Positions 8,331-38,980 of a stretch of 64,000 nt of DNA are shown here, piece by piece. The notes under the pieces were generated by a model. It ran no database searches. It was given only the letters and a program-made list of their open reading frames with translations, and was not told where the DNA came from. The translations under genes and the position numbers were made by a program. Each line of letters starts with the position of its first letter. Position 1 is the first letter of the stretch. The DNA is from Heliocidaris erythrogramma (taxonomy: Eukaryota; Echinodermata; Echinoidea; Camarodonta; Echinometridae), in the NCBI GenBank assembly GCA_025617745.1, contig CM046854.1, forward strand, positions 63,445,606 through 63,509,605, in the 5' to 3' direction.

Positions 8331-8706
8331 ATGGCCGCCCCAGCCCTTTTTCATCCTCTTTTATTATTTCTCACAGCAATCGATGTTTTTACTGAGAAGT
8401 CGGTAACAGCAGTGAGAGGCAAAAACATCTCGTTACCATGCAATTTCTCAGGAGACACCGTTCCTGCAGCAGTCTACTGGTACAGACATAACTACACAGA
8501 TGCTCCCGACAACACAGCAACACTCGTTGCCCAAGAGTTTCAGGGAAGGGACCTTAGACCGGGAGGGGAGAGGTACAACATCACTAACGACTACAGGCTT
8601 GTCGTAATCAATGTCTCCGTCCCAGATGAGACGACCTACTCGTGCCAAGTCGTGACAGGTCGTGACATAGCCTATGACAGGGGCTACACGAAGTTGAGAG
8701 TTATAG
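8331..8706 (+). CDS. Exon 1: signal peptide and V-type Ig domain
   Basis: ATG 8331 sits in GAGATGG and begins MAAPALFHPLLLFLTA, a good signal peptide. In-frame open sequence extends further upstream, but without a secretory leader. The Ig fold shows C37 (SLPC), W50 (VYWYRH) and DETTYSC at 99-105, the usual disulfide pair plus core tryptophan. NIS, NFS, NYT, NIT and NVS are possible N-glycosylation sites. The donor after ...LRVI is G|GTAAGA, phase 1. A preceding AG at about 8300 could end a 5'-UTR intron. Confidence 0.85.
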
Positions 8707-11700
8707 GTAAGACTGAATGAACTGTACTACGTTTTTTTCTTTTCTGCTGGGTAAATATTACTGGCGTTAATATATTGTATTTTTTATCAGTTGAATGTAA
8801 TCTTATCTGTCAGTTTTTATGCTTTAATACCATTTTTAGCTCACCTGAGCCTAAGGCTCGAGTGAGCTATTGCGATGGAAATTTGTCCGTCGTCCGTCGT
8901 GCGTCGTCCGTTAACTTTTTACATTTTCATCTTCTTCTCCAAAACCCATGATCGGAATTCAACCAAACTTGGTAGGAATCATCCTTAGGGGTGGGGGACC
9001 CAAAGGTGTTAAAATGGTACATGTGGCCCCCAGGGGGCCCAGGGGGAGGGCCCCCAATTGTAAGAGCTATGTAAATTTCAAACATCTTCTCCAGAACCAG
9101 GCATAGCTCAGACTTGGTATTGTGTATGGAGATACCTCTATAGATGAAGAATGAATGTTGTTCATGAAATTTCTCTGAGTGGCCCTATAGGGGCCCTGTG
9201 GGGGTAACATACTGGAGGGGGGGGGGGCGCTGCCAGGCAAAATGTACATTCTAATCTTCTCCAAAACACATGATCGGAATTCAACCAAACTTGGTAGGAA
9301 TCATCCTTAGGGGTAGGGGATCCAAAGTTGCTAAAATGGTACATGTGGCCCCCCAGGGGGGCCCAGGGGAGGGGCCCAGGGGAGGGCCCCCAAGTGTAAA
9401 AGCTATGTAAATTTCAAACATCTTCTTCTCCAGAACCAGGAATAGCTCAGACTTGGTAATGTGTATGGAGATACCTCTATAGACGAAAAATTAAAGTTGT
9501 TCATTATTTTTTTCTGGGTGGCCCTATAGGGGTCTGTGGGGGTAACATACTGGGGGGGGGGGGGGGGGGGGGCAAGTTGTCCGCCATCCAGAAACTTTTT
9601 ACATTTTCAGCTTCTTCTCCAAAACCCATGATTGGAATTTAACCGAACTTGGTAGGAAGCTTAGACTTGGTATTGTGTATAGAGATACCTCTATAGATGA
9701 AGAATGAAAGTTGTTCATGTGCTAGAGAGAACATGCACCAGATGTGATTTGATCCACCTCAGGTGAGCGTCGTGCCCCCTGGGGCTCTTGTTATGAAGGC
9801 TATACTTTGTGTATCTTAATGTATAACACACACCCTCTTTGATCTGGTCTGTTTTGTTTTACTTAAATATCAATATCGTCTACCTCGCTAGTCATAAAGA
9901 CCGTTATCCATAAGGACAACTTATTCATAAGGACCGCTATCCATAACGCGTGACTAAATGAATAGCGAGCAAATCATAGCATTACCTCGCTATTCATAAG
10001 GACCTCCGTTCATTAGGATCGCTTTTCATAACGCGCGTTAAGTGAATAGCGGTTTTCTAGGAATAGCAGTCCTTATGAATAGCGAGCGGACCTGGTCTAT
10101 TAGCGGTAGCTAGCTTAGGTCTAGGGGCCAATTATCATGATAGAAAAACGGGTATTACTAATTTCGCGGATAAAATTGGTGAAATGCGTGATAAAGGCTA
10201 ATGAATTATGGGGAAAGTGACGTTGGAGGGCCGTTTCCTCTTATTTTCATATCCCCCTCTCTCTTTCTCTGTTTATTCTTCCTTTCTTTTATTTTCTTCG
10301 GCATTCTATAGGGGGGGGGGGAGGGCAGGGACGTACCCCATAGAATAATATAGCTACGCCACTATATCTATGAATTTGGTTCTCCATAGTCTCTTCCTAT
10401 TCCTTTTCTAACCATCTCAAACATCACTATATCGATAGCCTTGGCAGAGCCATTGGAACCAATCATAGTGTCCTGCAAAGTCACGAAGCCAGGGCGATGC
10501 ACATATACCATTGCCAAGGAACCCCCAGAACAAGTGACTCTAGTTTGTGAACTTCACGATGTCCGACCTCCAGTCAACCTTACATGGACAAGAAGTGATG
10601 GAAGATTACAGACTACAGCTCAACAAATTTACGTGAATAATGGGCTACATACTATCTCATCTCAACTTCAAGTAATTAAAGTTTCTCTATTTTTGTATAC
10701 TGGACGATTGTGTTCAAATTTGTGTTCAAATTCAGAAGTGAAAATATCCACAAAATTATTACCTCATGAACTCATATTAATGAAAATAGAGCAACGTAAA
10801 CTATCGTCATATAAATAGAATGTATCTCATTCAGATTTAAAGTAACGGTTCTCCATTTTATTGATTCGAGAAGACATATTTGATGTTTTGTATTTTATTG
10901 CCCTAATCAAAAATTGGCATCGTCCGCGGAACCCGCTACTATTATGGAGTAGACATGTTTCATATTTGCTATCATAATTACATATAGCATCTTGAAGACG
11001 AAATTACAATTCAAAGACAGCAAAGTGTCAATTTATTCCCTGTAGAAAGCTGACAGCTCACCAAAACCCTATGTTTAGTATTCATATTACTTTTTCAGAA
11101 TCTAAATAGGGTAAATTTCATTTGCTAAAATGCCAATATTTAATGCCATGGCGATTTATTTAAAAAATCGGATCGCAGACCGATCCTATATGTCGTAAGG
11201 TCTGGCCTTAACGTAAACAAAGAAAAAAAATAAGGGTGGTTTCGGGCAGCGAACAACTTCAAATTCCTGTAGAAAGATGCCCGAACATCCTCATATTTGG
11301 ACAGTGAGATATCCGGCTATCATTATTGTCGGGCAGGAAGCTACAATACAATACAACAATAAGCATTTAGTACGCCCTTCCCATAAGGCTCGGAGCGTCT
11401 ACTGAAATATGTTATAAGTGTTATGATTTTCTAGTGTATTTTGATGAATAAATGATATCTTCAAGACAATAAAGTGTCTTTTTTGGATTACTCTCGCCCA
11501 AGATTTAGAAAAGGAATAGTTTTGGGCAGCAAACTAAATTGACTTTGAACTCTTCCTGAAACTGTCTCCATGCCTATTTTCAGTTATATGACTTTGAAGT
11601 TCATAGTACACATCGATTTATTTACAGAATATTTCAGTCCAATCAGGATCTACAGCCCCTTTGTCTGCGATACCCCAGTCATACCAACCAGACCGACAAC

Positions 11701-14700
11701 AGACCGAACACAATTTTACATTACCTGGAATCAGTCGCTTTTGGAATCGGTGTAGAGTCGGTTTTGCGGTGTGACTCAGGTATCAAATCTGTATCTGAAT
11801 CCAATGAAATGTGATCATTACACTTTCTTCATTCCGAACCCAAGCACATGCTTATGAGACGTACGACCAATGGTATAAAAGCCTACGCATAAATACCATG
11901 CCCTGTTATGTATATTATTTGGTTATCTGGGTTTAAGCTGAGAATTGTCCCCGGTTTGATAAAGATATATCTTCCCGAAACAAGAGAATATTTGTTGAAC
12001 AAGGATTTATTCTTGTCTTGCAAAAGGAATAATTTTCTTATTTGCATCTGCAGGTATCCAATTACGATTTTGACTATAAGTACAAATGTGAGGCGAAGGG
12101 GGAAGCAGTAAGCGGCATCTCATCTATGACAGCTGAATTTGGAGTAGAACAAACAAGTGGCAAAGGTACAGGGGGAGTGGGGTACCTAGGAGGTGCCCCT
12201 CAATTAAATGGAAAATAACAGAAAAATGAGGGGTGGGTGGGGGGGGGGGGGCAGGGGAATGGGGAGGGAGGGGAGGGAGACATCCCCTAACTAACCGATT
12301 CGCTCCCACTTCTGTCACTTTATGAAAGGCTTAAATCGTCATATAAATAGGATGATTTGAAGCCCTTTTTAGCAAACTTAATTGAATTTAGAAAAATAAT
12401 TCAGACCCTTGTATCATTTAGAATTTAGTGGTAAATTACTTTTTTAGCCTTCAAATATTCTATAAAATGGAACATCACGTGAATATGTATATTTCTAATC
12501 TCACAAATGCAAAAATGGAACCCTCAACTGGGCAATGTAGTAAATATTCTGAAGTTTAGGCCTACGCGCGTTGTCCCTTTTCCTCCAAAATACGCATGTT
12601 CGTTGTAATTATAGATTATGTGTGATTCTCTCATATATATACTTCGGTAATTAGTGTGTTCAAATTCTTATACTTCATGCTTTCTTATATTTTTCTTTCT
12701 CTAGGGCTACATGGAGGTTTTATTTTTCTGATAATACTAGCAGTCATCCTAGCAGTTTTAGCAGCCGCAGCTATCTATCACCGGAGAATCGGATTACCCT
12801 GTTTAAAAAGTGGTGAACATTATTTTCTTTACTTCATTTTAGTCATCTTTTACGATTATGATATTTTATTGAAAATAGAAAGCTAAAACTCAGTCATCAA
12901 GTCCAGTGTTCTAAATTCTTGTGCATCTATAATAAGGAAGTTATTTTTTTAATCAAATTAAACTTGCATACATATACATGTCATGACAAAACATAACAAA
13001 TACATTAATTTCAAAACATTACAAACAGAAGTTCGTTTTACATAATATTCAGTATTTAAGTTCCTTTAAGTCATTTTCTTTTCACATTTTTTCCAGAACA
13101 CTACCATTTGATCTCCATTTTAATTCTTTTATAATTTATTTTTTTTCCTTTAAATATTAGATGTGTGCCTAAATTAATGAATACATTGTAAAAAGCAAAA
13201 TACTTACATTCACTTCCCCCTTGTCTACCTATAACTATATCTTCATAATTTATTTCAAAATTTTTAACAATTACTTCGATAACAACACCAAATTTACTAA
13301 ATTTACTCCAAAAAAGTCTTGAAAAATAACAAATTTTAAAAAGATAATGATTTTCAATAGTATTACAATTATATCAAAGTGGGATTCAGACAATCTAAAA
13401 CGAAACAAATATTCATTAGACATCAATAACTTAATCTTTTCTTTTCAAATCTTGTTCCAGTTCAGGTTCTTTTTGAAATATAATGACCAATATTGTTTAA
13501 CATTAGGGGTAATGAATTTTTTGTCTACTAAAATATTATAGATTTTGAAATTCTTGTTCGTACTTTGTTTCATACGTAAAAAAGGATTTTGGTTATTTTA
13601 ATGAAAATAGCTTACAGTGGAATCATTATTTTAAATTTTTTCTTGAAGCAAAAATGTTTTTTCTATTTTTCAGGTATAAAACTCCAAATTAACTTCGATT
13701 CACATAAGTAATTTCCTCTCTTCTTTAATTTTGATTGAATACATGATGAATCAATTAGTCCGTCTTTATTTACAATATCTCTAATAACGAGAATGCCAGC
13801 ACATACCCAGTGTGTGCAATAAAAACATTTATTTTTATTTTTAATATGTGTATTACCCCATAATAACTGCTGCCTTATATCTTCAGCCGTGTTACAGAAA
13901 AAGGAGCATGGGAAATACTGACATAATTTAGGTTATGTTTGAAAGAACTAAAGATTTTAACATTGTAACTTTCCCAAAAAAAAGTAATTTTCGACATATC
14001 CATAGCAACACTTCGCTTTTTCGTTCCAAGTTTTTTTATATGCATCATACATATTTTTTCTGAACTACATCCCTAGCGTTTTTATAAATGCACTGGTCCA
14101 ATCTATCTCTTTGAAAAGATTGCAATTAAAATTTCCAAAACTAAAACCTTTAGTTTATAAATATCTTTTTCATTACGTTTACTAAAGACTGTTCATCAGC
14201 TACAAAGACTGTTGTGTCATCAGCAAATTGGCTAATCCTAACCTCAACGACTTCATTTGCTTTGCTAGGTAGCTTTATACCTTTCACATCAATGCTTTTA
14301 TATAAATCAATCGCCATAAACTCCACTACTACACTGTAAAAACTGAAGTGATGTATAGGGACTGCTATTGTAATGCACACAGCGTGCTATTTCAGCACTT
14401 TCACGGGAGCTGGACCGGCTCCTTAAACTGCTAAACATTCATTAAAAAAAAACGTGATTTTGGCGAGCCTCGAACCAGGGTCCGCTGATCGAGAATCGCT
14501 GGCATTACCGCTAGACTAACTCCCATCGTACGATTTAGAGCAGATCATATTGTTACATAGTGAATTTACGACTCCACATAGACTCCCATGACTAAACTGG
14601 ATGGCAAGAAGCATTCGTTAGTCTATCGGTAACGTCAGCGCCTCTCAATCAGCGGAACCTGGTTCGAGGCTCGCAACGGTCACATTTTTTTTTTGCTGGT

Positions 14701-17700
14701 AATTTAGCACACTACAAGTGCTAAAACAGCACTTCAGGTGCAGTCACTATACATGCCCCTAAAAGTACCACTTTAGTTTTTGCAGTGTACTAAAAATGAA
14801 AGGGCAGACACTGGACAAACTTGTCGTACCCCCTCTCTTTAGAGGGAAATAAACCGACTGCCAATTTAAATTCATTATACAACTTTCTGCATCAGCATAT
14901 AAAGATTTTATATATCCTATAAACTTCTCACCAAAATTAAACTTCTCAAGAGCTTTATAAAGAAATTCTCTATTAACCTTATCGAAGGTCTTTTCTAGGT
15001 CTAAAAATAACATCGCCCCAGACCTTTCACGTTGTTGCATAGAATTAATCAAATCATCCGTATATTGTTACCTATAAAACGACCTTTTAAATAAGCATTT
15101 TGATCTAAGGAAAAAAATGAAGGACTGATTTTAACCTATCTGCCAAAACTGATATTTTGTAGTCAGTATTTAACAGACTTACAGGCCTCCAATGGGTTAA
15201 TAAATGTTTTTGACCTTTTTTTATGCAAGAGTGTTATAACGGCCCTACTCTGGCTAACCGATAACTTCTCATCAGATAGGGAATATTTGAATAGATTTAA
15301 CATAATGTCTTTCAAATTGTTCAAAAAACATTTATAAAATTAAAAAGTTAAACCATCTTGACCTGGGCTTTTACCAAGTTTTGAATTCTGAATAGCATTT
15401 TTACATTCAAAGAGCGACAGTGCGCTATGGCACCATTACTTTTTGTTTTTCATTTAGGACATTTTCTATATGAATATTGTTTAATTTATAAACAAATCTT
15501 TAGGCATTTTTACTCCCAGTGTTAAAGATCGTATGCTCGATCTGTAATGAAATCTGTAATTAAAAATGAATATTAATGAGTCAGAAAGAAGAGGATCTTG
15601 GGTATTTGATTCTAGTTTCATCGTGACTTGGCCGTGAACCAGAATAGCCTGGTGGTTAAGTTGCTGCCCGGCAAGCAGTAGATGACAGGTTCGAATCCCG
15701 CTGGTTCCAATTTTTTCTGACTTGTGTTTTTCATTACAGATCAAGCATACGATCTTTAACACTGGGAGTAAAATGCCTAAAGATTTGTTTACAAATTAAA
15801 AATTCCTCCCCAGTCAAGCTTCTTCGTGTATATGAATATTGTTTAAATTATAAAGTCGTTTACATTATTATTATCATTGTCGTGTTGTGAATAAAGCTCA
15901 GTAAAATAATTCACTTCAGCTGTCAAAATATCAGTTTGACTTCTGTATACTTTATGTGTTCAACTTTAAACAAACTCTTCTGTTGATAATTTCTTTTTTC
16001 GAGACCCAGAAAAAAATTATTGTAACGGTCTCCTTCTTCATACCATTTTATCCTTGCCTGATCTAACCTATTCTCCATGAACCTGATAATCATCCAGGCT
16101 ATTCAACTCTCTCCTTATATCTTTTATTTCTTGTTTCTGCTCACCGGATAAAACTTTCACTTTCTTAAGATAGTCTAGTCTCTTTTGTAGATATAATTTT
16201 TTATCTTTTGTTTAACTGGATTTATCTATGCAATATTCTATTGATATTTGCATTGCATCATTGGCGGATCCAGGGGGGGGGGGCACTTCCGGCCCGTGCC
16301 CCCCCCCCCCCCCCCTTTGGAAGAAAGGTATGCATTTTGACCGTAGACGATCGGCCATTTTCTGGACCCCTATAATCCCCCCCCCCCCCCCCCCCCCACA
16401 CTGAGCGACTTTTCGAGAAGCTGGAGAGACAAAAACAAAATACAGGTCTACAAACCTTCATTTATGTGCCCCCTCTTTTACTCAATCCTGGATCCGCCCC
16501 TGCATTGCATACAATTTCGCAATCGTTGTCGTCTGGCTGAGATGAAACATCGATGAATGCAGTGCACCGGAGGTCTCCTCTCTTATGCCCCGGCAGGGAG
16601 AGTCTTATGAATTGACCTTCACGACACTCACGAGCGCAGTGCCCTACTTTCAAGCACTTGTTGCATTTGATGTTTTCTTTGACTTTTTCCTTTTCACGAG
16701 TTTCTTTTTGCTCTCTATGGTAGATTTTTGCACGAAATCCTACAACTTCAAACATATTTGGTAAGGGGGACTGGGAAGTTCGATGAAGATAAACTTCCTC
16801 CCAGTTTTGAAATGGTTAGCTTTAATACCGTCAGATTCTCTTGCACACTCGTACTTCTCTTCAGTAACTGGTTTTAATACCTTTTTGATGAAAGTAGACT
16901 TTATGTCACTGTTGGCAACTGAGAGAGGTACAATGAAAACTTTTGTGGTAGGTTTGTCGCAGGTGTGTAGGTGTGAATTAGCATCGATAAGATCTATCTC
17001 CTGGCTTCTCAGTGCTAAACCATTTATGAGGCTCTTCTGCATGCCTTGCCTTTAGATCTAGTGGATAAATGCGCCACAAATTTCGAATTCTCTGTGCGCC
17101 ATCGATAGTAGAATCACCAGAAACTCCAATATCAAAGAAAGCACTGTTTTTGAAGAAAACACGACGACCTCTGGGTGTGGTACCCCCGGTGTTAGTCGAG
17201 CGTTCACACTGGCAATAATTGCTTAAAAACAAAGAGCGGACTGGGGTGTCGTAATGTCCCCTATCGGGAAACTCTCGGGTATGGGTATATGGAAATACCG
17301 TTTAGTGACCAGCTTAAAACTCACTCCAAAGTCATGAACCACATCAACAAGATTTTGGAAATGAACAAAATCACGGAAAGCACACAAGTAAGTCTAAGTT
17401 AAAAGTTCACATATGGTTCAAATATGTCTCTAAGTAAAAAAAAAATCACCAAAATTATGAATTTGGAATACGGCTATGTGAAACTGTGGCGTCTGTCACA
17501 GCCGGCCATCTTTAAGTCAGTTAACCCTAACAGTACTAGGCCGGGTATTTTGGGAGTTCTTATGGCCGGGGGGGGGGGGGGGGGGCGGCGGCCTCCCAGG
17601 CCCCCCCCCCCCCCTAAGATCTCGGCAACGGTGGACTCTGCGCGCATGAAATTTGGCACAGATGTAGATTACCTTATGTAGAACACAATCCCGGTGTAAT

Positions 17701-18770
17701 TTTTTCAATATTCTTGTTCGTGTTTTTTTCTCAAAATGGTAAATTTTGCTATATGAAGATGAAAATGGATTGAATATTGGCTGTAACTGCACCTCTAAGA
17801 CTCAAAAATACATAAAAAGAAAGAAAATTGGGCAAAACGGTGTTTTATTCATTAATATTCATTAATATGCAAATTAGCTGTGTCATGTGTATTGCAAGCA
17901 AATGTATTTCTTTGTTTCTATTCTTATGTATTTCTTTGTTTTTAAACTTATGTATTTTTTTGGTTTTTGAATTTTAATGTATTCTATTGTTTGCCAGCCA
18001 TAAAGCATATTTGTTAAATGAATATTGTGATAATAAACAAGAAATTGTAATGATTACTAGGAATGGTTACTTTTTTGCCATAGGCTAATACACACATGAA
18101 TGGAGAATTTGATCATTTTGCTTGACATAATTGTAATCTGACACCAGAACCGTATGACCGATCCACATAAATGAGGTATCAAAATGTGCATGAAACATCA
18201 GGGAAAAAAGTCATGAAATTTGAGCGCGAAAGAATCAGCCGTCGCGAGGTCACGTACAAAATTCTGGAGGGGGGGGGGGGCCTCCCAGCCCCCCCCCCCC
18301 CCCCCCGGCCTAGTTAGGGTTAAGAAGTTATTTATTTGTGATTACGTTTTGCTGGTATGAAGGCTGAATTTTGTGTTTTTTCCAAAATATTTTGCCTTTG
18401 TCTATCCAGCTACAGCTGCGGACAATGCGGAAGCCCAACCCTTGAATGAAGTAGAAGGTAAGATAATTTTGAATATTTGTAAACGTATTGTAGAAAACCA
18501 ATCTTTTACATTATAACATAATTTCAGTTTCATTTCATTTCAGTTTCATTTCATTTTGTCTTTATTTCATAAACCAAGAAAAAATTCATTGTCCGAATGC
18601 AACGCACAACTCTGATGCCATGGAATGAATGGAAACGCATGAATCAGAGCAATAGAAGAGTATGATATTGTAATAATAATGTTAATGATGATGAAAGTTA
18701 ACTTGACATTCAGTACGTTCCTAACGGTAAATCATATCACAGCATGTGCAAAATAACAGTAGTCGTAATA

Positions 18771-18819
<49 letters not shown>

Positions 18820-21800
18820 GTTACTGTTCAAACAAGGTGTTAATATACAATATCCAAAATGACACAGGGTTATTAAATTGTAAAAGCAATAAGATTTTTA
18901 AAAATCTATTTAGGATGGAAAGGAGATTCAAGGAGCTGTTTGACTCTGTAGCGTTTGCTGCTTTGATAAAGGAGAAAACATTGTTCCTATAGGTTTCAAT
19001 TACTTTAAAGGGTGCACGCCAAGAAAAAAATAAAAGAGACTAAAAATACACTGTTGGTCATAATGTTAGCATAATACGTATTTTCATAGTCATCCGTTGA
19101 TTTAATCATATTTAAAAGCCTAAATAGATAATATTGACCAGGTTCATTGATTACATAATGATTTTGTATTGTCGAGGTAAAAGTCGGTCAAGTGAAACAT
19201 TCCATAACGTGGCCTATCTTATTGTTTGGTGCTATGAAAGGCAGAGCCTCCTTTCTGCTGTTGTTTTGCTGTCCATTTCGTGCAGAAAGGCTACGTGTGT
19301 TAACAGCCCGTTTTCAGAGTTAGCTTGATCAATTCCTACCAAATTTGGTACACTGATTCCTTACACTATGCCTCGCCCAACGGCACTTGCAATTCGTCAG
19401 AGGGTCCTTGCACTCCGACGGAATGGACGGACACAGGCCCAGATTGCAGATATTCTTGGACTATCGCAGAGTTGTGTGTGCCGCATCCTCAGAAGACATC
19501 GAGAGGCGGGTACTTTGAGTCCAGAGAGATCTACAGGTTTACCACGAAGAACATCCGCACGGGATGACCGTCAACTGCTGAACATGTGCCGTAGGAACCG
19601 GAGAATGCCAGCGAGTCGTCTTTGCCACTTGTGGAGGAGGCACTTCGGAGTGAACGTTTCACGGGAAACCATAAACAGGAGACTTGTCCAACATGGCTAC
19701 AGAGCTCGGCGAATGACCAAGGTTCCACGTCTCACTGTTCGCCACCGGGTTGCTCGACTCGAGATGGCAGCTTGGTTACTGGCGCCATGTAATCTTCACT
19801 GATGAAAGCCGGTACATCCTTGACCGCACCGATGGGAGGCAGAGGGTTCGACGATTGCGGGGCGAGAACCTCTGTAAAGACTATGTCCAGGAAACCAATC
19901 AAGCAGGTGGAGGCTCAGTGATGGTATGGGCCGGAATACATTATGGCGGAAAAACGCCATTGGCTGCACCTGAAGGAAACGTCAACGCCGTCGTGTACCG
20001 CGATATCCGGGAACGCCATTGTCTTCCATACGCGAGAAGAGTATATGGCAATAACTTTCAGCTCCAAGACGACAACGCTCGATCACATAGGGCACGTCTG
20101 GTGAGGGAATTCCTTGACGCAGAGGACGTGCAGCAGATGCCTGGCCTGTTCCACATCATGAGCAGCCTATGCATTGGCCGTGCCATCAAGAGAAATAATC
20201 ATCCTCAAAATGTGCAGGAGTTAGCCCAGGCACTGACCGAAGAGTGGGATGCACTGCCCTTGAACACCATCAACAACCTTGTGGACAGTATGCCACGGCG
20301 TGTGGAGGCACTGGTGCGTGCCAGAGGTGGCCATACCAGGTACTAAGTGACCCAACAAGAATAAAAAGAGGAACACTTTCCTTCAATCATCAAAAGATCG
20401 CAAGATTTTAATTTTCACGATAAACTTATCATCGTTAAACATTTACCAAAAACGATACATTTTATCAAGGAATCCAAGGTCTGGATGATTGTGTTTGTAA
20501 AAAGTTTAAACCAGTGTATAAAGTTTGTATGAATTAATTTTTGTCTTATATTTTTTATTTCATATGTTGAGAACAGATTTATCAATAAAAATCGATGAAG
20601 ATATAAGCTTTATTTTGCAAAAAAAATGACTCGCATTGTTGTCAATAGTGTACGAAAGGTAGAAAAAAAATTATGCTACCATTATGACCAACAGTGTAGA
20701 TAGTTTCAAGTAGGAATATAGGAACTGATCAGCATGTCATACTTGCTCACCTGAAACTCTCGAAGATATGCACACGTGAGCTGGTTCTCATAATGAATTT
20801 CCATTTTGCAAAATTTCAGTCTGATCTAAAAAAAAAGAAGAATATCTACTTTGAAATTCATGGGGAATACCTTTGTTGCATGGTAATTACCACCAAGTCT
20901 ACAATGCCTTGAAGACTTTGCAAAAGGCGATTGCTGGGGACCAGTTGGAATAACGTTTCACTTAGCTATAGTTCAAAGTTTTATAGGTTTATCTTGTGCT
21001 CTTTTCGCTAGCTGGCATTGCAAGGCTCAGAAGAATTATCAGGGACTACACACCTGGTAAACTGACGGATAAGGTGTTGAAGCCAGGCCTTACATGCCCA
21101 GATCATATCCGATTAGCTATAGTTGGAGCAACAGCCGCAGGGAAATCTTCTGTGATCCGATCTCTCAAATACGCTTATTCAGGTTTGTGTATAACTTTCT
21201 TGGATATTATAGAATGTAAGGAGAAACATATTCATCAATTGGTCTTTCATATTGCAATAAATTTGTAGATAGATATTTGACATATCTATTAGAAATGTAT
21301 TGAAATAAATCTAGTCATTCTTAAAGTGGAGCAGATGGTTCAGTTGTTCAATGTATATAGGATTTTAATTTTTAGTTGAGTATATTAATGTTCCTGTGAG
21401 TTCATATTAAGACGTATAAGTGGCTTTCATAATGATCCAATCCTCTAAATAAGTTCATGATTATACTGCTCTTCTAAATCTCTTTTCAGAGAAATAAAAG
21501 AGGAATGATGTTTGTACTCCACAACTAAATATTTTACCGTTATATAGCGTTATATAATTTCATGTTTATATTTTTACGATCGCGAATAAAACCAAACCAA
21601 AGCACCAGATGTTAACAAGTATTCAAAAATATACTACTACTATGCTATTCCTATTAATAATACGAGTGGCGGATTTAGGGGGGGGGGGGGCTCACGTGGC
21701 CCGTGCCCCCCCCCCCCCCTTAGAACGATTTTTTTTTGCCTGTCAGAGAATTATGGAGGGGAATATATATATTTTTTTTGTTCCCCACCCCCTAGCAACT

Positions 21801-21957
21801 TTTTGAGAGCTGGTGAGACCAAAAAAATACGGGTCTCCCTCCAAGCAGTTTCCAAAGGTTGACAAACCTGCATTTGTGTGCCCCCCTTATACAATCATTG
21901 ATCCGCTCCTGGCTAATACTATTACTATTACTACTACTACTGCTGCTGCTGCTGCTC

Positions 21958-21992
<35 letters not shown>

Positions 21993-22129
21993 GCTAATTC
22001 TACAAATTCTACAACAGCAACAAGAACAACAAATATTACTACAACTACCACTACCACCACCTCCACTACTACTACTACTACTACTACTACTATTACTTTT
22101 ACTACTACTACTACTACTGCTGCTACTAC

Positions 22130-22169
<40 letters not shown>

Positions 22170-25100
22170 GCCTACTGCCCGGACACGGGTATAGCACATG
22201 GAAAAAATATCAAGTTTTAGCAATCTTCTTCTGCTCACAATTTTGGCTGCCTATTTTCCTTGAGTGTCTTTTAACTCGCCGCTGACTACTACTACCACTA
22301 CTACTACTAATAATAATACTTATACTACTATTACTATTACCTACAACTATTACACTTCTTTTACTACTACTACTACTGCTGCTGCTGCTACTACTCTACT
22401 ACAACAACAAATACTACTAACGATAATGAATAATGTATTTTTGTAAGGTGTATATAGCAAGGAAATTGAAATCACCAAGGGAACAGGTGCAGGAGCAGTA
22501 ACAATTGAGTCAGCCTTCTATAAAATCACCGACTCCATACATATCCAGGATAACAGAGGTTTGCTAGATTTTGATACACAAAATGTCGGAAAGATAATTC
22601 AAGGAATAGGTAAGGATCAATTTGATTATGATGTGAAATTCTAAAGTGTCATACTGTCATCATTATGTTCTTTTAAGCTTTCAGAATGATGGCGAGTCGC
22701 TAAATGATTATAAAAAATAGGAATGAAAATTTACAATGACAAAATCTTATAAATATTGACAAGAATACTCAACTCTAAGATATCTGTAAAAAGAAAATAT
22801 AAGGGCACATCTCTAGAAATACTTTTATTAATAGGCTTAGTATTACAACATAGATTTTACTGGCCCTGTACGTCTTTTTTATTTTCAGTTTTCACAGATG
22901 TGTTGTCCCAGTATTCCCATTTATTTTATTTTAAAATCCCTTTTTCCCCTTCTTCCTCTTCTACTACTTGTTGCTTTTGTTTTTGTTTTTCTTCTTATTC
23001 CTTTACATCTTCTTTCACAAGGCTGTAGGTACGACTGAGATTTGTACAATTCTGTAAAGTCAATCAATCTATATCTTGGTATTCAGATTCAGATTCAACT
23101 TTTATTGACTGTTTTCAATCATATTAACATAATACTGTAGTGCATAACATAAAATGAATACAATAATAACAAAATATAACAATTATGTTTTTTCCATAGA
23201 TATGGCACAATATCAAATATCAATAAGTAAAAAAATATGATGCATAAATATTAACCTATTAAGTGATGTTGAAAACAGTTGGACATGTTTAAAAGCAAAG
23301 CTTGTATGTTACATGTCCAGAAACTTATATTACTTAATCACGAGTGGGTCGTTCAATAATATTAAAGTCATAAAGCATAAAGCATACATTATTTGACATG
23401 CCCGTAAGGTTTTACTTAACACAACAGTTGGAAACAGCATTAGCGACATGTATCTAATTGAAAATATGTATTTGGTGATGTTACTTTTTCTTTATTCCCC
23501 CTTTCCCTTAACCTCCCTTCAGTTGTCCTTGTCCTTTAACATGGGTGCTTCTATATCTTTTTGGTTTCTCTTTTTCATCAGGAGAGGAAAGAGTTTGCCT
23601 GTTGATACCCATATTTCGGTTAGTAATGATATTAAATGGTTGTTAAGCTATTGATGTATTGTGTATTTTCATGTCATTCGCCCATTGTTGGTATTCTGAA
23701 TTCCTTGTTTGTCGATGATAATGATATGGGACCAAATATGAGGATACAAATTTTGTCATGATTCACTCGATAAATTGTTTTAAATATAATAAATACTTAA
23801 TAATCAGTACTGCATGTCCAGAAATAGCATTATAAAAATGCTAGTGACTGCCCCATCATACAGTGAACGATGTATGCGAGATTTCTATTATGGCAGAGCT
23901 GAATATAGCCTGACAAAATAATTCCTGTATTTTAGAAATAATACTAAAATACACACACACACACACCCACGTTTACATGGCTTTACTTCCGAGGACAATT
24001 ATTGTTCCTCTATTGTTACTCGTCCTCGGACAGTCGACGGAATAAGGCATAAATTCATTGTTCGACGTTCGAGGACTATTGTCCGCCTTCCGAGGACCAT
24101 TGTTGTCATGATTTTTTTTTTGTTCTCTGTCCGAAAATGTCCTCGGACATAATGCTAAACAAACGCACACCCACACACCCCACTCCGTACACATTGATTG
24201 TGGGGAACGGTATGTTTTCTCCTATTGTATTTTGTACCCAACAAGCATGACTAAATAAAGGCCATCAGTGAACTCTTTTATTATCTGTGCCCCAACTGCA
24301 TGCATATACGATCACCCCCCCCCCCCCCCCCCACACACACACATTATATCTGACCAATCCACTAACAATTTTGATATTGCTGATCTTTTTATTTATTTTT
24401 TATTTGTGTTTTATTAGAAATCAATAGAAAATTAGAAATCACAATATTTACAACTGTTGATCTTGTTATTGAATTATTGAATTATACGACTATTTAGCCT
24501 ATGAGGTGCAGAAGTAGTGGAAGACGACAGCAGCCACAAGTGCCTTGATCACAGATCAGTCTATTGGTAGAGCAAAGAGCGGGTCAGACCTCATCGATAA
24601 CCATAACGATTTTCAATTAAAGGTACACCCAACTATGTTGTATATTAAGAATAGGGCAGCTGATGGGTGTACCCTTATTAAAAATATCGTTATTGTTATC
24701 GTTACCGCTGAGGTCTGACCAGCACTCAATACGATGATATGCACTGTTCTTTTTGCCGTGATATTTTACATATAATTATTTGCATTTCTTTCCGTGAGAA
24801 TCGAATAAACACAGTAACTTTAAAGTAGAAATTCATTCATTTTCTTCATATAGTACATTTATAGATCATCAGAAAGCTTAAACCCCAAGAATAAAATGAT
24901 TCTATTTTCAAGCATTGACACAAAAGTGGAAAGGTGAATTAAGCACAGTGAAGATAGTACTTTGGGAAAGAAGCAGTGGGGAAGGACCGCCGATGAAAAT
25001 GGTCTGTCGAGTATGACGTATGCGGATGGACGCACATGATCTCTACTGCATATTCATTAGCATTCACGCAGTAGTTTTGAACGTCAAGATACGACATAAA

Positions 25101-27470
25101 TACGACAAAATACATTGCTCGTAAACTTCGCATTTACACTGTTTTATGCGTTTTTCACCACTTCTGCAATTTAGCTTGCATAAAATAAAGCCTAGACATG
25201 CTAGACGACGGGTTTCTGGGCCTCTTTTCTTCTGTATCGCCCGCAGTTATCTAAATTTTAACATTTTTATGATGAGTTTGGATCGCAATGCCCCGCGCAA
25301 TGCACGTTTCGGGCATGATATAGGGCTAAAGTCACTATCATAGCAAATAAAACATTTTTTTTCTTTCATTTAAGCAATGTATGAAGGACAGGTTTTTGAG
25401 ATATTTTTCTTCTTTATCGGACGTAATTATCTAAATGTTATCATTTTCGTGACGCATTTCATTCGCAATGCAGCGGTTTTCGGACAAGCTGTATACGTAA
25501 GAGTTGCATAGCCAGCCTTGTGTGAATTCTAAGTGAGTGGTCGAGTAGGAAGCATATAAGGCATATTGCCTAATATCACGATCATAGCGAATAATAATTA
25601 TAATAATAATAATAATAATAATTTCTTATGTCTATATGCCCGAAACAACCACGAAAATATTACCAGTGCCATGCAGCTTGCTACTCGATCACTTATGTGT
25701 TCAACAGGTACAGCATGTTCAACATCGCTGTGCATTGCGATCCAAACTCATCAAAAAAAAAAAAATTTAGATAATTGCGGGCGATACAGAAGAAAAGAAA
25801 CCCAGAAGCTCGTCGTCTAGGCTTTGTTGTATGCCAGCTTAATTGCAGAAGTGGTGAAAAACGCATAAAACAGTGTAAATGCGAAGTTTACGAGCAATGT
25901 ATTTTGTCGTATTTTGTCGTATCTTGACGTTCAGAACTACTGCGTGAATGCTAATGAATATGCAGTAGAGATCAGTGCGTCCATCACCGACCTCTACGAC
26001 CTGGACGTTTCATTGGCTCAGAAAAGTGAAGTCGTGGTCCGCCATGTTGCACTTCTGAACAATCAACGCGCGAGAAAGCTGGAATACAGATTTGTGTACA
26101 ATCATGCGGACGCCCATGGTCAAAACGCGCAGACAAGTACAGATGTTCAGTGCGTAACGTGTAATAAACCACATCGCTCTCGGAAGAGTAACATGGCCGC
26201 GCCCACTTCAAGTGCTCGCACGAGCGGGAATGGGCGATGATCCGTCCAGGTCGTAGAGGTCGGTGGCGTCCATCCGCATACGTCATACTCGACAGACCAT
26301 TTTCATCGGCGGTCCTTCCCCATTGCTTCTTTCCAAAAGTACTATCTTCACTGTGCTTATTTCACCTTTCCACTTTTGTGTTAATGCTTGAAAATAGAAT
26401 CATTTTATTCTTGGGGTTTAAAGCTTTCTGATGATCTATAAATCTACTATAAGTAACTATATGAAGAAAATGAATGAATTTCTGCTTTAAAGAAAATTAA
26501 AGTATTTCCATTTATGACAATTGCTTCTTGAAATATGCCACTGTCCTTTCTAACTTTTTTTTTTAATGAAAACTTTATTTTCAGTCCACAGCATGTTCAA
26601 CAGAATACTATAAATCCCTTTCTTGTGGACCTCTCTAAAGCTGTCAGAAACAAGTTTGGTATGAATATTCTTATTTTTATGCCATTGCAGTGTTTCAATG
26701 TATAAAAGGCTTTTAAATGTTAATTTTCTTTCAATTGATTTATTTTATTCCATTAGTTTTATGCCCGTCAGTGACACACCTTTTGCTCCATATTATTTCC
26801 TTCATCAAATTACACTAAACCAGAAATATAAGCCACCAGACACTTTTAACCCGTTGACTACTGAATTCTTTAACTCTCATAGGTTTAATACAGGAGCCAC
26901 CCGGTTCCCGTAGTCTATGGGTTAACTCGACAAATATTTTATGAGACTTGTTCATTCAAATAGCAAAATATGCAGATATTTTTTACTCATATTTTAATTG
27001 ATTATACATGAACAATTCATTATGTTTCATTTTTGGGGGGAACATTGCGTTTCATAATGCAATGCAGGATGTACATGCACGTACTCAGTTCATTTTTTTA
27101 AATCGTGCTTTTTAATGCACGATTTAAAAAAATACCAATTAGGCGTCTGTAAATAAGCAAACTATGACTGGCAGATTTGAAAAAAAAATAGTATATAAAA
27201 AATTAAAAAGTCTGTATACTTTGCCTTTTGAATAAACGAATTCAGTCAAAACTCGAGTTATATAAAAAAGCGGTTTAGGAGGGAACTGACCTTTTTAGTT
27301 AAGTAACTTGTGGTAGTGTGCAGAATTGTTGGATTTAAAGAGTTGTAAACTTTAATTGTGATTGTGTGCTTTAGAGAGTAAATTGATACCCAGGAATATT
27401 TTCAGGGTATTTTTTCCCCTCATACTAAGTGGGCCCTGAAAATATTTGGGCATAGGGGGGTGTATTTTTG

Positions 27471-27506
<36 letters not shown>

Positions 27507-28032
27507 GGGGAATGTTCTCCCTTTCGAAAATCCATTCTGGTTTATATCTTAAGTGCACACAAAACTGTAAACCCTTTAGTGATCTTGATCTCCCCCCCCC
27601 CCCCCCCCCCCTCCTGTTGCAAATATTAAACCCCGGAGCCATCTAAACAGCGTAATTTTCATGTAGATTTTTTTTCTACTTGAGGTAAATAGATAAGATT
27701 TTAGATAAGATTTTATATTCACTCTATCGACCCCCTCTCGGGGTAAGAGAGCACAACATATTTACAATAACATAAATGGTATATTGAATACATGTACATG
27801 TTTTGGGTATATAGTTTAGATATTAAATACTAAACAACATTTCTCAACAAAATCCCGGTCGGAGCATTGTAATTTTCTCACATTTACTTTCTTTATGATA
27901 TATTCAACTTACTTCAATCCTATCAATTATGATATTTAATTACGAATACAAATTGTCCTCTATGGAAATTCGTTGGCATGGATTTGCCCGACTTTATATA
28001 TACATGTATATATATATTTTTGTGTATTTTTG

Positions 28033-28074
<42 letters not shown>

Positions 28075-29554
28075 GTGTATGATCACTTCACCTAATACCG
28101 GCCATGTCATAATACCGACCATTAAGCGTATCATGGCATCTAGCGCGCGTCTTGCAAATCAACCCATGGGACTACGCGTAGAATGCCTAGCAACGTTGAG
28201 AACAGCCAAAGTAGAGCAAGATGAGGAATAAAAACGTAATTATTATCAATTTTTTGTTAATTTTTCATATTTTCATTAATAATCTCTTTTCATAAATTGC
28301 CATTGACTATGTGCAGGGGTCGGTAATTAAAACGCACTTCTCCCTCTATGCGTAAACTGAGATGACCATATTGCAACGTCATTTCTCAAGAACGCGCAAG
28401 TGTTATCGCTCGTTAGTACCTGGATCTTGTTCCCCAGTATTTGGGTAATAGTCTGATGAATTTTCATTACGTTTCATGAAGAATCTTTGCCGTAGTCGTT
28501 GGAAACATCGTTAAGAGGCCGGTATTAGGTAAAGGCATCATAAATACAACTAAATTACTAAATGTCTAGGATTTTTAACTATTCTACCACTCCGTGTAAC
28601 TACCTGACTTTGATCGTCACCTACAACATCAGATCGTGATAGAGTTTATTGTGGCTGGGTAACCTCGCTACTCATAAAGACCGCTATTTTTATTATGGAC
28701 CGCTGTCCATAACGCGTGACTAAGTGCATAGCGGTTTTGAATAAATAACGGTCCTAAATAGCGAGCAAACCATAGACAATTTGCCTCGCTATTCGTAAGG
28801 ACCTCCATTCATAAGGACCACTATTCAGAACTATTCATAAGGACCGCTATTCATAACGTGTGTTAAATGAATATCGGTTTCTAAGAATAGCGAGAGGACC
28901 CCATTGTGCCTCCACCTTTACAGAATACTTCCCTGCGTGAAAATGGCATTATATCTTAATCCTTTTCGTTCAAATCTTTTTTTTAAAAGAGTCATGACTA
29001 AGGATTTCTTACCTCACTTGTATTCTTATCAAGAATACAAGTCCTCACTTGTATTCTTATCAAGAATACAAGTGATGTTGAAAATACTGACAGATTTCAT
29101 AAAAAAATAAACCGTTTAAAAGAGTTTAAAAGTATAGCATATCTCTTCTCGATACTCTTAAAAAATATATCATTGTTTTTGTTTTCTTTTTTCCATTCTT
29201 ATTACAGGGTCCTATCCGCTCGTGTTTGTGACACATCGGGACAAGATTACCGATGAAGGCGAGAAGAAGCGGATACCAAGGATAGTTGCTAACATGGACA
29301 TTCTCATTGATAATGTCAAATTTGTGGAGAATTTCACGAAAGAGCCTGAAAACGAGTCCGTATGCCAAGACCTGATCAAAGAATTCTTGGAGGTATTACA
29401 TTCAATTCTGATTATCGCCGATAGCAACCTTGTACAGCAGTTGAATAAAGGAGTCAACGTGGGTGAAAAGAGTGGAGGTTCTTCGCGGTCTTTACAGAAC
29501 AACACAAACCGCAACAGAATAAGGCTTCCAAAATTACCGACGTTATTTAAATAA
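8331..29554 (+). CDS. Ig-domain transmembrane receptor with cytosolic IFI44-like GTPase domain (10 exons)
   Basis: Joining exons 8331-8706, 10439-10671, 12054-12165, 12705-12812, 18410-18457, 21012-21182, 22448-22609, 23582-23618, 26585-26658 and 29208-29554 gives 1668 nt, or 555 residues plus stop. Every junction is GT/AG and in phase. Predicted layout: signal peptide 1-21; V-type Ig 24-125 (C37, W50, DETTYSC 99-105); second Ig 130-235 (C162, W175, YKYKC 211-215); membrane helix 246-264; RR stop-transfer; linker 277-292; GTPase domain 293-520 with P-loop GATAAGKSS (331-339), DNRG (384-387) and THRD (449-452). The GTPase matches remembered IFI44L features: RSV-like helix after the P-loop, CD(S)LGL-like switch, LTHVD-like G4, and a VxNF...E...D...AD tail. 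I infer that ligand binding outside is coupled to nucleotide-dependent assembly inside. The exon model is mine and untested. A 5' non-coding exon, extra exons or alternative splicing cannot be excluded. Confidence 0.8.
8842..9791. repeat. CTCACCTGAG-type invertebrate repeat with internal tandem units
   Basis: It starts AGCTCACCTGAGCC, runs through GTCCGTCGTCCGTCG and TCTTCTCCAAAACCCATGA, and ends near CCTCAGGTGAGCGTCGTG, so its ends are inverted. An internal unit (AACCAAACTTGGTAGGAA, GGGCCC-rich stretch, GATACCTCTATAGA) is repeated about two and a half times. From memory, repeats of this style are widespread in marine invertebrates. It lies in intron 1. Confidence 0.75.
9884..10094. repeat. 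GGACCGCTATTCATAA-word repeat, copy 2
   Basis: Same family as 5535-5768. It begins TACCTCGCTAGTCATAA and ends AATAGCGAGCGGACC, with repeated TTCATAAGGACC words in both orientations and ACGCG cores. It lies in intron 1. Confidence 0.75.
10439..10671 (+). CDS. Exon 2: first half of second Ig domain
   Basis: The acceptor is ATCGATAG|CC (phase 1) and the donor CTTCAA|GTAATT (phase 0). It encodes residues 126-203: VTLVCEL (C162), NLTWTRSDG (W175), then GLHTISSQLQ, the strand before the second cysteine. Two extra cysteines (C138, C146) lie ahead of the core. Splitting an Ig domain by a phase 0 intron is common in this superfamily. Confidence 0.85.
10672..12053. other. Intron 2
   Basis: I see nothing coding that fits. 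An open stretch at 11620-11755 (PTTDRTQFYITWNQSLLESV) has no phase-compatible place between exons 2 and 3 and no Ig motif. Confidence 0.6.
12054..12165 (+). CDS. Exon 3: second half of second Ig domain
   Basis: The acceptor follows TTATTTGCATCTGCAG (phase 0) and the donor is AAAG|GTACAG (phase 1). It encodes residues 204-240 with DYKYKCEAKGEA, the YxC strand whose C215 pairs with C162 of exon 2, then the G strand and a short stalk. Exon 2 plus exon 3 form one phase 1-1 Ig module. Confidence 0.85.
12166..12704. other. Intron 3
   Basis: Contains a G-rich tract (12230-12280) and otherwise AT-rich sequence. No other feature was seen. Confidence 0.5.
12705..12812 (+). CDS. Exon 4: transmembrane segment
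   Basis: The acceptor follows a long pyrimidine tract (TTTTTCTTTCTCTAG) and the donor is AGTG|GTGAAC. Both borders are phase 1. It encodes residues 241-276: GFIFLIILAVILAVLAAAA is a clear membrane helix, followed by YHRR, which places this end in the cytosol. A juxtamembrane cysteine (LPCLKS) could be lipid-modified; that is speculation. Confidence 0.85.
14332..14787. mobile_element. MITE with two opposed tRNA-like segments, copy A
   Basis: A 456-bp element with ends CACTGTAAAAACTGAAGTG and its complement (CACTTTAGTTTTTGCAGTG), flanked by TACTA on both sides (14327-14331, 14788-14792). Inside, 14462-14524 on the minus strand and about 14616-14676 on the plus strand each carry A-box-like (TTAGTCTAGCGG) and B-box-like (GGTTCGAGGCT) words. 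It interrupts the LINE. Confidence 0.85.
15488..15797. mobile_element. Foldback repeat with an embedded tRNA-like gene, copy 1
   Basis: Inverted ends pair TAAACAAATCTTTAGGCAT with ATGCCTAAAGATTTGTTTA, and AAGATCGTATGCTCGATCTG with its near complement. The interior contains a 72-nt tRNA-like sequence (15636-15707). Relatives form a cluster at 61996-62726. Confidence 0.85.
15636..15707 (+). tRNA. tRNA-like sequence inside a repeat (probably not a functional gene)
   Basis: It is 72 nt long with a 7-bp acceptor stem (GAACCAG / CTGGTTC) followed by CA, an A-box-like TAGCCTGGTGG, an anticodon stem GCTGC/GCAGT and B box GGTTCGAATCC. The 7-nt loop CCGGCAA would give anticodon GGC, but it lacks the usual U33, so I assign no identity. 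Because it sits in a multi-copy foldback, I read it as a tRNA-derived module. Confidence 0.5.
16259..16502. mobile_element. GGCGGATCC-family hAT-like MITE, complete copy
   Basis: The ends are CATTGGCGGATCC and GGATCCGCCCCTG, flanked by CATTGCAT on both sides (16251-16258, 16503-16510). The 8-bp duplication fits hAT. The interior has long poly(G)/poly(C) tracts and conserved words (GTATGCATTTTGACC, CGAGAAGCTG, GTGCCCCCTCTTTTACTC). Other copies: about 1922-2015, 21668-21912, 33905-34142, 41296-41531, 58588-58680 and 60833-61080. Confidence 0.9.
17521..18322. mobile_element. TTAACCCTAAC/GGCCGG-ended repeat
   Basis: About 800 bp. The left end TTAACCCTAACAGTACTAGG and the right end CCGGCCTAGTTAGGGTTAA are inverted, and each is followed inward by paired poly(G) and poly(C) blocks with GGCCTCCCAG. 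The interior is AT-rich with repeated ATGTATTTCTTTG words. No protein was seen. It lies in intron 4. Confidence 0.75.
18410..18457 (+). CDS. Exon 5: short acidic cytosolic linker
   Basis: The acceptor is GTCTATCCAG|CT and the donor GAAG|GTAAGA, phase 1 on both sides, 48 nt. It encodes residues 277-292 (ATAADNAEAQPLNEVE), an unstructured acidic spacer between membrane helix and GTPase. It fits exactly between exons 4 and 6, but so short an exon is easy to mis-call. Confidence 0.65.
18773..18815. repeat. (TA)n microsatellite
   Basis: Uninterrupted TA dinucleotides over about 40 bp. Confidence 0.95.
19049..20696 (+). mobile_element. Tc1-family DNA transposon, inactive
   Basis: A 1648-bp element in intron 5. 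Its inverted ends are CACTGTTGGTCATAATG... and the complement (29 bp, one mismatch), with TA duplicated at 19047-19048 and 20697-20698. It carries one broken Tc1-type transposase. Confidence 0.95.
19368..20346 (+). pseudogene. Tc1-like transposase, frameshifted
   Basis: The frame from ATG 19368 encodes paired-like helix-turn-helix domains (RQRVLALRRNGRTQAQIADI, GLSQSCVCRILRRH, VSRETINRRL). Around 19750-19800 the frame switches and a short segment is missing before WRHVIFTDES, the first catalytic aspartate. DDNARSHRA supplies the second. The third acidic site (normally NPIEHIWD) has been replaced by out-of-frame sequence near 20140-20180, before GRAIKRNN. The protein ends at the stop at 20344-20346. 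With the third catalytic residue lost, it should be inactive. Confidence 0.9.
21012..21182 (+). CDS. Exon 6: GTPase P-loop
   Basis: The acceptor is TCTTTTCGCTAG|CT and the donor TCAG|GTTTGT, both phase 1. It encodes residues 293-349: a lead-in helix (GIARLRRIIRDY), then a beta strand and Walker A motif HIRLAIVGATAAGKSSVIRSL. GxxxAGKSS followed by a hydrophobic helix matches the IFI44 pattern (GPIGAGKSSFFNSV in human IFI44L, from memory), although alanine replaces the usual glycine in the motif. Confidence 0.85.
21668..21912. mobile_element. GGCGGATCC-family MITE, copy in intron 6
   Basis: Starts GTGGCGGATTTAGGGG and ends TTGATCCGCTCCTGG, with poly(G)/poly(C) blocks and the AGAGCTGGTGAGACC word. 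The ends have diverged and I could not fix a target duplication. Confidence 0.75.
21920..22165. repeat. (CTA)n and (TA)n microsatellites
   Basis: Imperfect CTA/CTG trinucleotides followed by about 40 bp of TA. A second CTA-rich patch is at 22286-22425. The long Ser/Thr/Leu open frames across here are artefacts of the repeat. Confidence 0.9.
22448..22609 (+). CDS. Exon 7: GTPase switch region
   Basis: The acceptor is TTTTTGTAAG|GT and the donor ATAG|GTAAGG, both phase 1. It encodes residues 350-403. EITKGTGAGAVTIESAFYKI corresponds to the G2/switch I area, and IHIQDNRGLLDFD carries the G3 DxxG (384-387), where IFI44L has CDSLGL. QNVGKIIQGI matches the helix that follows (DDIFYILNG in IFI44L). 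The CTA microsatellite just upstream replaces a normal pyrimidine tract. Confidence 0.8.
22610..23581. other. Intron 7
   Basis: AT-rich. GATTCAGATTCAACTTTTAT near 23086-23105 looks like the reverse of a LINE 3' tail, but no coding part is present. Confidence 0.4.
23582..23618 (+). CDS. Exon 8: 37-nt microexon of the GTPase domain
   Basis: The acceptor follows GGTTTCTCTTTTTCATCAG and the donor is TTCG|GTTAGT. It enters at phase 1 and leaves at phase 2. It encodes GEERVCLLIPIFR (404-416), a beta strand aligning with DRIHCVAFVFD of IFI44L. It is needed to join exons 7 and 9 in frame: without it, exon 9 enters a frame with a stop. The phase fit and the motif fit were found independently. Confidence 0.7.
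23619..24582. other. Intron 8, 5' part
   Basis: I see no gene. At 23990-24150, CGAGGAC and GTCCTCGG words recur with ATTGTTGT spacers, probably the remains of a foldback. Poly(C) lies at about 24316-24332. Confidence 0.4.
24583..24720. repeat. Small foldback repeat
   Basis: GGTCAGACCTCATCGATAAC pairs with GTTATCGTTACCGCTGAGGT (with gaps), and GGTACACCCAACT pairs with AGCTGATGGGTGTACC. A 138-bp hairpin-like repeat. Confidence 0.65.
24818..26493. repeat. 1.7 kb foldback element in intron 8
   Basis: The left arm (24818 to about 25300) and right arm (about 25720-26493) are long inverted repeats. Paired words include AAATTCATTCATTTTCTTCA / its complement, GTCGAGTATGACGTATGCGG / its complement and GATACAGAAGAAAAG / its complement. 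The right arm is interrupted by a separate MITE (25985-26265). The centre repeats part of the arm (ATTATCTAAAT...GCAATGC). Confidence 0.85.
25985..26265. mobile_element. hAT-type MITE nested in the foldback
   Basis: The ends CACCGACCTCTACGACCTGG and its complement flank 281 bp, with GCGTCCAT duplicated at 25977-25984 and 26266-26273. The opposite foldback arm (about 25031) shows the empty site, GGACGCAC without the insert. Confidence 0.9.
26585..26658 (+). CDS. Exon 9: GTPase helix before G4
   Basis: The acceptor follows ACTTTATTTTCAG and the donor is TTTG|GTATGA. It enters at phase 2 and leaves at phase 1. It encodes residues 416-440: PQHVQQNTINPFLVDLSKAV and the rest of the helix, which leads into the G4 strand. 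It aligns with the segment between VFD and LTHVD in IFI44L. Confidence 0.75.
28661..28900. repeat. GGACCGCTATTCATAA-word repeat, copy 3
   Basis: Starts GTAACCTCGCTACTCATAA and ends AATAGCGAGAGGACCCC. Internal words are shared with 5535-5768 and 9884-10094, including TAACGCGTGACTAAGTG. Confidence 0.75.
29013..29073. repeat. Two tandem identical hairpins
   Basis: ACTTGTATTCTT-ATC-AAGAATACAAGT occurs twice with a 31-bp period, each copy a perfect 12-bp stem. It lies about 135 bp before the last exon. Confidence 0.9.
29208..29554 (+). CDS. Exon 10: G4 motif and C-terminal half of the GTPase domain
   Basis: The acceptor follows TTTTTTCCATTCTTATTACAG (phase 1), and the exon runs to the TAA at 29552-29554. 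PLVFVTHRDK (444-453) is the G4 strand, where THRD stands for the usual NKxD; IFI44L has LTHVD. NVKFVENFTKEPENES and DLIKEFLEVLHSILIIADSN match the family's tail. A GAG|GTATTA donor at 29392 would cut inside this conserved tail, so I prefer read-through. I saw no AATAAA soon after the stop, so a further exon is possible. Confidence 0.75.
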
Positions 29555-38602: not shown

Positions 38603-38980
38603 CGCCCTATTCTGCTAAATTTGGTATCAAATTAACCAGCAGGTTACGCTTCATATAACATCAATAGAAAAAAATAAGGTTGGATTTCCCTTTAATTGGC
38701 TTTCGTCTATATGGGAAAATATATGAAGGATGTTAAAGGCTAATATGGCTTTTATCACACAAAACTTCCTCAAAAACTTGGTGAAAGGAGATCGCACAAC
38801 ACTATTTGAAAACCCGGGTGTTTGGTCATCCGTGACTGCACAGGATGAATCTAAGTGTTTGTTTCAAACATTGAAAAGTAAATTAGATGAAGATTTTCTT
38901 ACATGTTTTATTTTTATAATTATTTATTTGTAAATTCTGAACTTGATCAACCCTTCCTTCCAATTTGTCTGAATTTACAG

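Follow-up and report, generated by a model that had tools for sequence, protein, structure and literature searches.

A 64,000-nucleotide window of the genome of the sea urchin Heliocidaris erythrogramma (assembly GCA_025617745.1, contig CM046854.1, positions 63,445,606 to 63,509,605 of the forward strand) carries a plus-strand gene at 8331-29554 whose ten exons join into 1668 bases, that is, 555 residues and a stop codon with no internal stop. The encoded protein combines two immunoglobulin (Ig) domains, one predicted membrane helix, a short linker and a putative P-loop GTPase. On balance, the evidence tilts modestly towards a functional type I Ig receptor with an IFI44-like cytosolic GTPase, driven by clustering and probably immune. 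Gene anatomy, homology, kept nucleotide-binding motifs and the occurrence of different tails on one ectodomain family can be read directly from the sequences, and these observations are set out below.

The exons (Table 1) were placed by tblastn with a protein of Lytechinus variegatus (P0001; independent NCBI model LOC121420419, 555 amino acids, named "uncharacterized protein"), combined with phase constraints and splice-site scoring. P0001 and the other relatives discussed here, P0002 to P0007, are all computed models. All nine introns run from GT to AG, in phases 1, 0, 1, 1, 1, 1, 1, 2 and 1, and every junction fits. The original prediction of ten in-phase exons and 555 residues was thereby reproduced exactly, and homology to P0001 spans its nine junctions. 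In the window, P0001 gives eight tblastn matches at E<=1, which are collinear and follow the order of the exons; those of exons 4 and 9 are weak alone. The reversed window, used as a control, gives two scattered matches, the best at E 0.50. Chance joining of exons was rejected on this homology and control. The fusion is not a chance join also because P0001 has the same domain order across all nine junctions and P0002, from Lytechinus pictus, models the passage from Ig domain to P-loop. A prokaryotic or viral origin of the stretch was likewise rejected in view of the introns and the urchin homologs.

Some exons are better anchored than others. The two shortest, exon 5 with 48 bases and exon 8 with 37, have no tblastn match with P0001 in the window; placed by splice signals, phase and local resemblance, they are the least secure of the ten. 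When phase 1-1 candidates no longer than about 120 bases were ranked by splice score within 12830-21000, exon 5 came first. Exon 8 ranks third by resemblance to P0001 and first among candidates ending in the phase 2 needed by exon 9, the latter ranking being partly circular. The acceptor of exon 7 (TTTTTGTAAG) is weak, and the long microsatellites just upstream of it may affect it.

For the ectodomain, an earlier piecewise version passes the Pfam V-set profile with 47.3 bits (cut-off 26) and Ig_3 with 57.0 bits (cut-off 30) in two stretches, as well as ig, Ig_2 and I-set; its second domain also passes C2-set_2 and C1-set. Together with the Ig cores, formed by Cys 37/105 and Trp 50 in the first domain and Cys 162/215 and Trp 175 in the second (motif positions), these matches identify a predicted Ig-superfamily ectodomain composed of a V-set and a C2-type domain. 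Six N-glycosylation sequons lie within residues 32-172. Hydropathy analysis gives a single run of membrane-helix strength (maximum 3.29; helix at about residues 246-265) with HRR right after it, a hydrophobic N-terminus (1.72) and a borderline run (1.32) in the C-terminal helix. Judged by these runs and by HRR, the protein is predicted to be a type I membrane receptor with its GTPase facing the cytosol. A receptor using immunoreceptor tyrosine-based activation or inhibitory motifs (ITAM/ITIM) was considered and rejected: the four Y..[LIV] matches all fall within Ig or GTPase parts, although full ITAM/ITIM patterns were not scanned.

The GTPase motifs named in the original prediction, G1 GATAAGKSS, G3 DNRG and G4 THRD, were located at residues 331, 384 and 449, and Pfam, motif and hydropathy results agree with its order of two Ig domains with Cys/Trp cores, single helix, linker and P-loop GTPase. 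The G1 Lys and Ser, the G3 DxxG and the G4 T-H-x-D are kept in both the window protein and P0001. The curated profile PF01926 is passed by P0001 (30.8 bits; cut-off 21.9), which together with the three motifs marks the domain as a probable P-loop GTPase. Fold predictions for P0001, with a mean predicted local distance difference test (pLDDT) score of 43 from the single sequence and 38 from a five-row alignment, are too poor for fold comparison. The single-sequence model, of low confidence, places strands and helices in G-domain order and is thus weakly consistent with this assignment.

A full-length protein search (7999 candidates scored) returned six matches at E<=0.001, all from Lytechinus, as would most likely be seen with nuclear DNA of a sea urchin. 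Two further word-limited searches gave two matches at E<=0.001, including the query (2236 candidates scored), and two matches at E<=10, neither of them named IFI44 (7999 candidates scored). P0001 shows the same order as the window gene, i.e., Ig V, Ig C2, membrane helix, linker and P-loop GTPase, and 278 of 518 aligned residues are identical (54%), across all nine junctions and into the C-terminal helix. It differs in a shorter C-terminus, a longer N-terminus and a slightly longer linker. This identity is far lower than the 87% between the GTPase parts of L. variegatus and L. pictus. In L. pictus, the single model P0002 runs from Ig through helix and linker to the P-loop; its homology ends at AYSG, which coincides with the exon 6 border, and is followed by 16 unrelated residues. 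P0003, also from L. pictus and assigned to the GTPase branch by ectodomain and linker only, loses homology near the exon 5/6 border, with NEVQS and then 4 residues. P0007 begins in exon 7 and models the later GTPase part separately. The ends of these three partial models match the placed exon borders; they make up three of the four models of the GTPase branch, only P0001 being complete, and may reflect annotation gaps or real short isoforms. The same domain order, which the original prediction had proposed to seek in related genomes, is therefore found complete in L. variegatus and up to the P-loop in L. pictus. Overall, the comparisons support one gene encoding a predicted Ig-helix-GTPase receptor, whose relative in L. 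variegatus matches from end to end and whose relative in L. pictus is truncated.

To place the GTPase, it was compared with IFI44, IFI44L and control GTPases by hhalign, shuffle and BLASTP, the reference sequences being provisional. In hhalign, a two-sequence profile of IFI44 and IFI44L reached a probability of 95.3 and a score of 63.3 over 199 columns; singly, IFI44 gave 93.9/57.1 over 199 columns and IFI44L 93.2/55.2 over 32 (probability/score). The single-sequence controls gave 91.0/51.1 over 48 columns for IRGA6, 58.4/37.2 over 117 for GIMAP7, 41.9/32.7 for HRAS, 32.0/32.8 for ERA and 28.1/30.8 for ENGB. IFI44/IFI44L ranked first of seven reference sequences in hhalign and of five by shuffle Z, and stayed on top in hhalign runs without the P-loop as well as with it. 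An upstream RDY.P and a C-terminal ML..AD also resemble IFI44 by eye. Human IFI44/IFI44L, the top profile scorers, share with the window protein a T-[HK]-x-D type G4, a pre-P-loop segment and the C-terminal ML..AD; unlike it, they are soluble, lack Ig domains and a membrane helix, and have a longer G3-G4 region. The non-GTPase N-terminal half of IFI44/IFI44L, which is TLDc-like, has no counterpart in the window protein.

The domain thus appears distantly IFI44/IFI44L-like, a moderately supported placement that is the best of the tested families in most comparisons, not a proven one. Several results weigh against it. The IFI44 signal is concentrated around the P-loop, IRGA6 follows closely and ERA at no great distance, and P0007 by itself ranks ERA first in BLASTP. 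The provisional IFI44/IFI44L N-terminal halves give no match with the window protein better than E 1.1, there is no accepted IFI44 profile match, and no IFI44 chain was found in the PDB. Even as a GTPase, the window copy scores 17.9 bits on PF01926, below the cut-off of 21.9, and the ATPase profile PF13476 AAA_23 narrowly passes in P0001 (28.0 vs 27; window copy 21.1); a GTPase is preferred to an AAA_23-type ATPase because of the G4-type THRD motif. Accordingly, the claims of the original prediction fared unevenly here. IFI44 kinship came out best of the compared families in most tests, with the provisos just given and the provisional references. Profile comparison, of the kind proposed there, set IFI44/IFI44L above GIMAP7, with IRGA6 close to them, and the C-terminal tail, said to follow IFI44, shows the ML..AD likeness seen by eye, a segment that the IFI44 alignment reaches.

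These points bear most directly on an alternative in which the receptor is real but its P-loop domain, divergent and specific to the lineage, belongs to another group (Era/EngB, IRG, GIMAP or other) and is IFI44-like mainly around the P-loop. We consider this rather unlikely: IFI44/IFI44L score highest in hhalign with and without the P-loop and in shuffle-corrected scores, the IFI44 alignment spans 199 columns and reaches the C-terminal ML..AD segment, and the G4 T-H-x-D is as in the IFI44 reference. A second alternative splits the locus into two adjacent genes, one for an Ig-helix protein whose last exon is 4 or 5, the other for a soluble GTPase whose start lies near exon 6. Such a split would account for P0003 stopping 4 residues past the linker, for the separate modelling of the later GTPase part in P0007, and for introns 4 and 5, which total 8.2 kb and hold mobile-element fragments. 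It is nevertheless very improbable, as P0001 and P0002 each run in one model from Ig via the helix into the P-loop, the exon phases fit, the exon 6 frame, open over 20987-21268, offers no ATG from its upstream stop as far as the P-loop, and exon 5, with good splice sites, has no other evident role. Finally, the protein could serve adhesion or development at the cell surface, its GTPase-like domain being a scaffold that needs no nucleotide. Paired Ig domains are frequent in adhesion proteins, and the best 60 of 311 PDB matches of the ectodomain, mostly antibody light chains, also include Lutheran glycoprotein. However, the G1 Lys/Ser, DxxG and T-H-x-D kept in both the window protein and P0001 would be unexpected in a decayed nucleotide site, and this explanation seems improbable.

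The ectodomain also occurs on other tails, a family context that lies beyond the single-sequence view of the original prediction. P0004 (L. pictus LOC129267461) and P0006 (L. variegatus LOC121419662) carry a two-Ig ectodomain of the same family as the window protein on a P2RX7_C tail instead of a GTPase (PF20478; cut-off 23.5, passed by P0004 with 62.2 bits and missed by P0006 with 21.6), while P0005 has the ectodomain and no recognised tail. An Ig ectodomain with a cytosolic P2RX7_C domain is itself an unusual receptor layout. The P2RX7_C domain of mammalian P2X7 has been reported to bind guanine nucleotide; therefore, both tails may be nucleotide-related. In exons 2-3, the window sides with P0001-P0003 against P0004-P0006 at 18 of 21 informative fixed-difference sites. 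In the V-set exon 1, it does so at only 7 of 16 (7:9; Fisher p 0.012 against exons 2-3). The V-set exon may have been exchanged between branches, or the V domain may have changed faster; with seven sequences, this is no more than a lead. Taken together, these models look like a small family that shares one Ig ectodomain but varies in the cytosolic module: this GTPase, P2RX7_C or nothing recognised.

Surface topology, nucleotide binding, clustering and an immune role are what we infer for the preferred reading, that of an Ig receptor with an IFI44-like GTPase. The V-set domain would most likely bind a microbial or cell-surface ligand. Ligand-driven clustering could then bring the GTPase domains together, and their nucleotide-dependent pairing would recruit an effector, the outcome probably being a coelomocyte immune response such as phagocytosis. 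If, as predicted, the V-set domain faces outwards and the conserved nucleotide site inwards, clustering, GTPase pairing and effector recruitment would be the simplest reading. By analogy, the clustering-then-effector scheme has an echinoderm precedent in AjNLRC4 of the sea cucumber Apostichopus japonicus, a membrane receptor whose two Ig-type domains are extracellular and whose NACHT P-loop domain is cytosolic (PMC8699970). That report places AjNLRC4 at the membrane of coelomocytes and describes microbe binding by the Ig domains and oligomerisation; phagocytosis is promoted by the NACHT domain, which binds beta-actin (PMC8699970). The window protein, as predicted, is likewise an echinoderm membrane protein, with a pair of Ig-type domains outside and a P-loop NTPase domain in the cytosol. 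Unlike the window protein, AjNLRC4 is described there with a NACHT domain, two membrane helices and at least 795 residues, and the two are likened by layout, not by homology. Pfam lists no NACHT domain at E<=10 in the window protein or P0001, and the former has a single run of membrane-helix strength.

AjNLRC4 also bears on novelty. Because of it, an Ig ectodomain combined with an intracellular P-loop NTPase is not entirely new for echinoderms (PMC8699970), which weighs against a categorically new receptor. The layout is also predicted in Lytechinus, where the L. variegatus protein is already in NCBI, uncharacterised and with no study found. The term "new receptor class" in the original prediction was thus too strong. 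Its more limited claim, that the layout is undescribed, stands to the extent that no description of an Ig/IFI44-like GTPase receptor was found in open-licence PMC literature, the general arrangement being known from AjNLRC4.

Mobile-element fragments, some of them inside the gene, and further open frames of the window are included in Table 1. The two downstream frames are alike by eye, have a leucine-rich look and are perhaps exons of another receptor gene.

Table 1. Exons of the receptor gene and other features of the window.
Feature	Position	Strand	Content	Evidence
Exon 1	8331..8706	+	Start codon, signal peptide, Ig V-set; residues 1-126	V-set 47.3 bits; tblastn P0001 E 1.6e-29
Exon 2	10439..10671	+	C2-type Ig, first part; residues 126-203	E 5.5e-23 to P0001; 64% identity to P0002 (tblastn)
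Exon 3	12054..12165	+	Second Ig domain end, YKC core; residues 204-241	tblastn P0001 E 8.5e-10
Exon 4	12705..12812	+	Predicted membrane helix, then HRR; residues 241-277	Hydropathy maximum 3.29 over 19 residues; weak E 0.10, collinear
Exon 5	18410..18457	+	Juxtamembrane linker ending PLNEVE; residues 277-293	Splice score; PLNEV common to P0002 and P0003
Exon 6	21012..21182	+	Pre-GTPase helix (IRDYTPG) and G1 P-loop GATAAGKSS; residues 293-350	E 6.4e-14
Exon 7	22448..22609	+	Switch region and G3 DNRG; residues 350-404	E 2.4e-14; GVYSKEIE common to P0001
Exon 8	23582..23618	+	Mini-exon, predicted beta strand LLIPIF; residues 404-416	Acceptor TTTCTCTTTTTCATCAG; P0001 resemblance and phase
Exon 9	26585..26658	+	Helix LSKAVRNKF; residues 416-441	E 0.057, 42% identity, collinear, in phase
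Exon 10	29208..29554	+	G4 THRD, C-terminal helix ADSNLVQQLNK, tail, stop; residues 441-555	E 2.4e-22
Microsatellites	21913-22419		CTA/TA/ACT, long	
Tc1-type transposase	19329-20343	+	Two frames, in intron 5	HTH_Tnp_Tc3_2 52.6 bits; DDE_3 21.0, below cut-off 28.6
Reverse-transcriptase fragment	274-999	+		RVT_1 29.7 bits, just above cut-off 29.6
Reverse-transcriptase fragment	14762-15067	-		RVT_1 29.0 bits, just below cut-off
Open frame	32598-32933	+	Downstream of the gene	No Pfam match
Open frame	38891-39547	+	Downstream of the gene	No Pfam match; no PDB match better than E 0.53

The P2RX7_C tail found on the same ectodomain in Lytechinus relatives argues for a receptor family with interchangeable cytosolic modules. 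It is quite conceivable, though we put it forward only tentatively, that urchins possess a family of surface Ig receptors with exchangeable cytosolic effectors, the effector in one branch being an immune-type GTPase driven directly by recognition, without tyrosine motifs, death or TIR domains, and that the V-set exon may be exchanged between branches. If the GTPase is an effector, a single polypeptide would couple surface recognition directly to an immune-type GTPase, and the poorly understood action of IFI44-type domains would become testable by ligand-controlled clustering. Different tails on one ectodomain would also be an example of how an animal that lacks adaptive immunity assembles immune receptors by exchanging modules.
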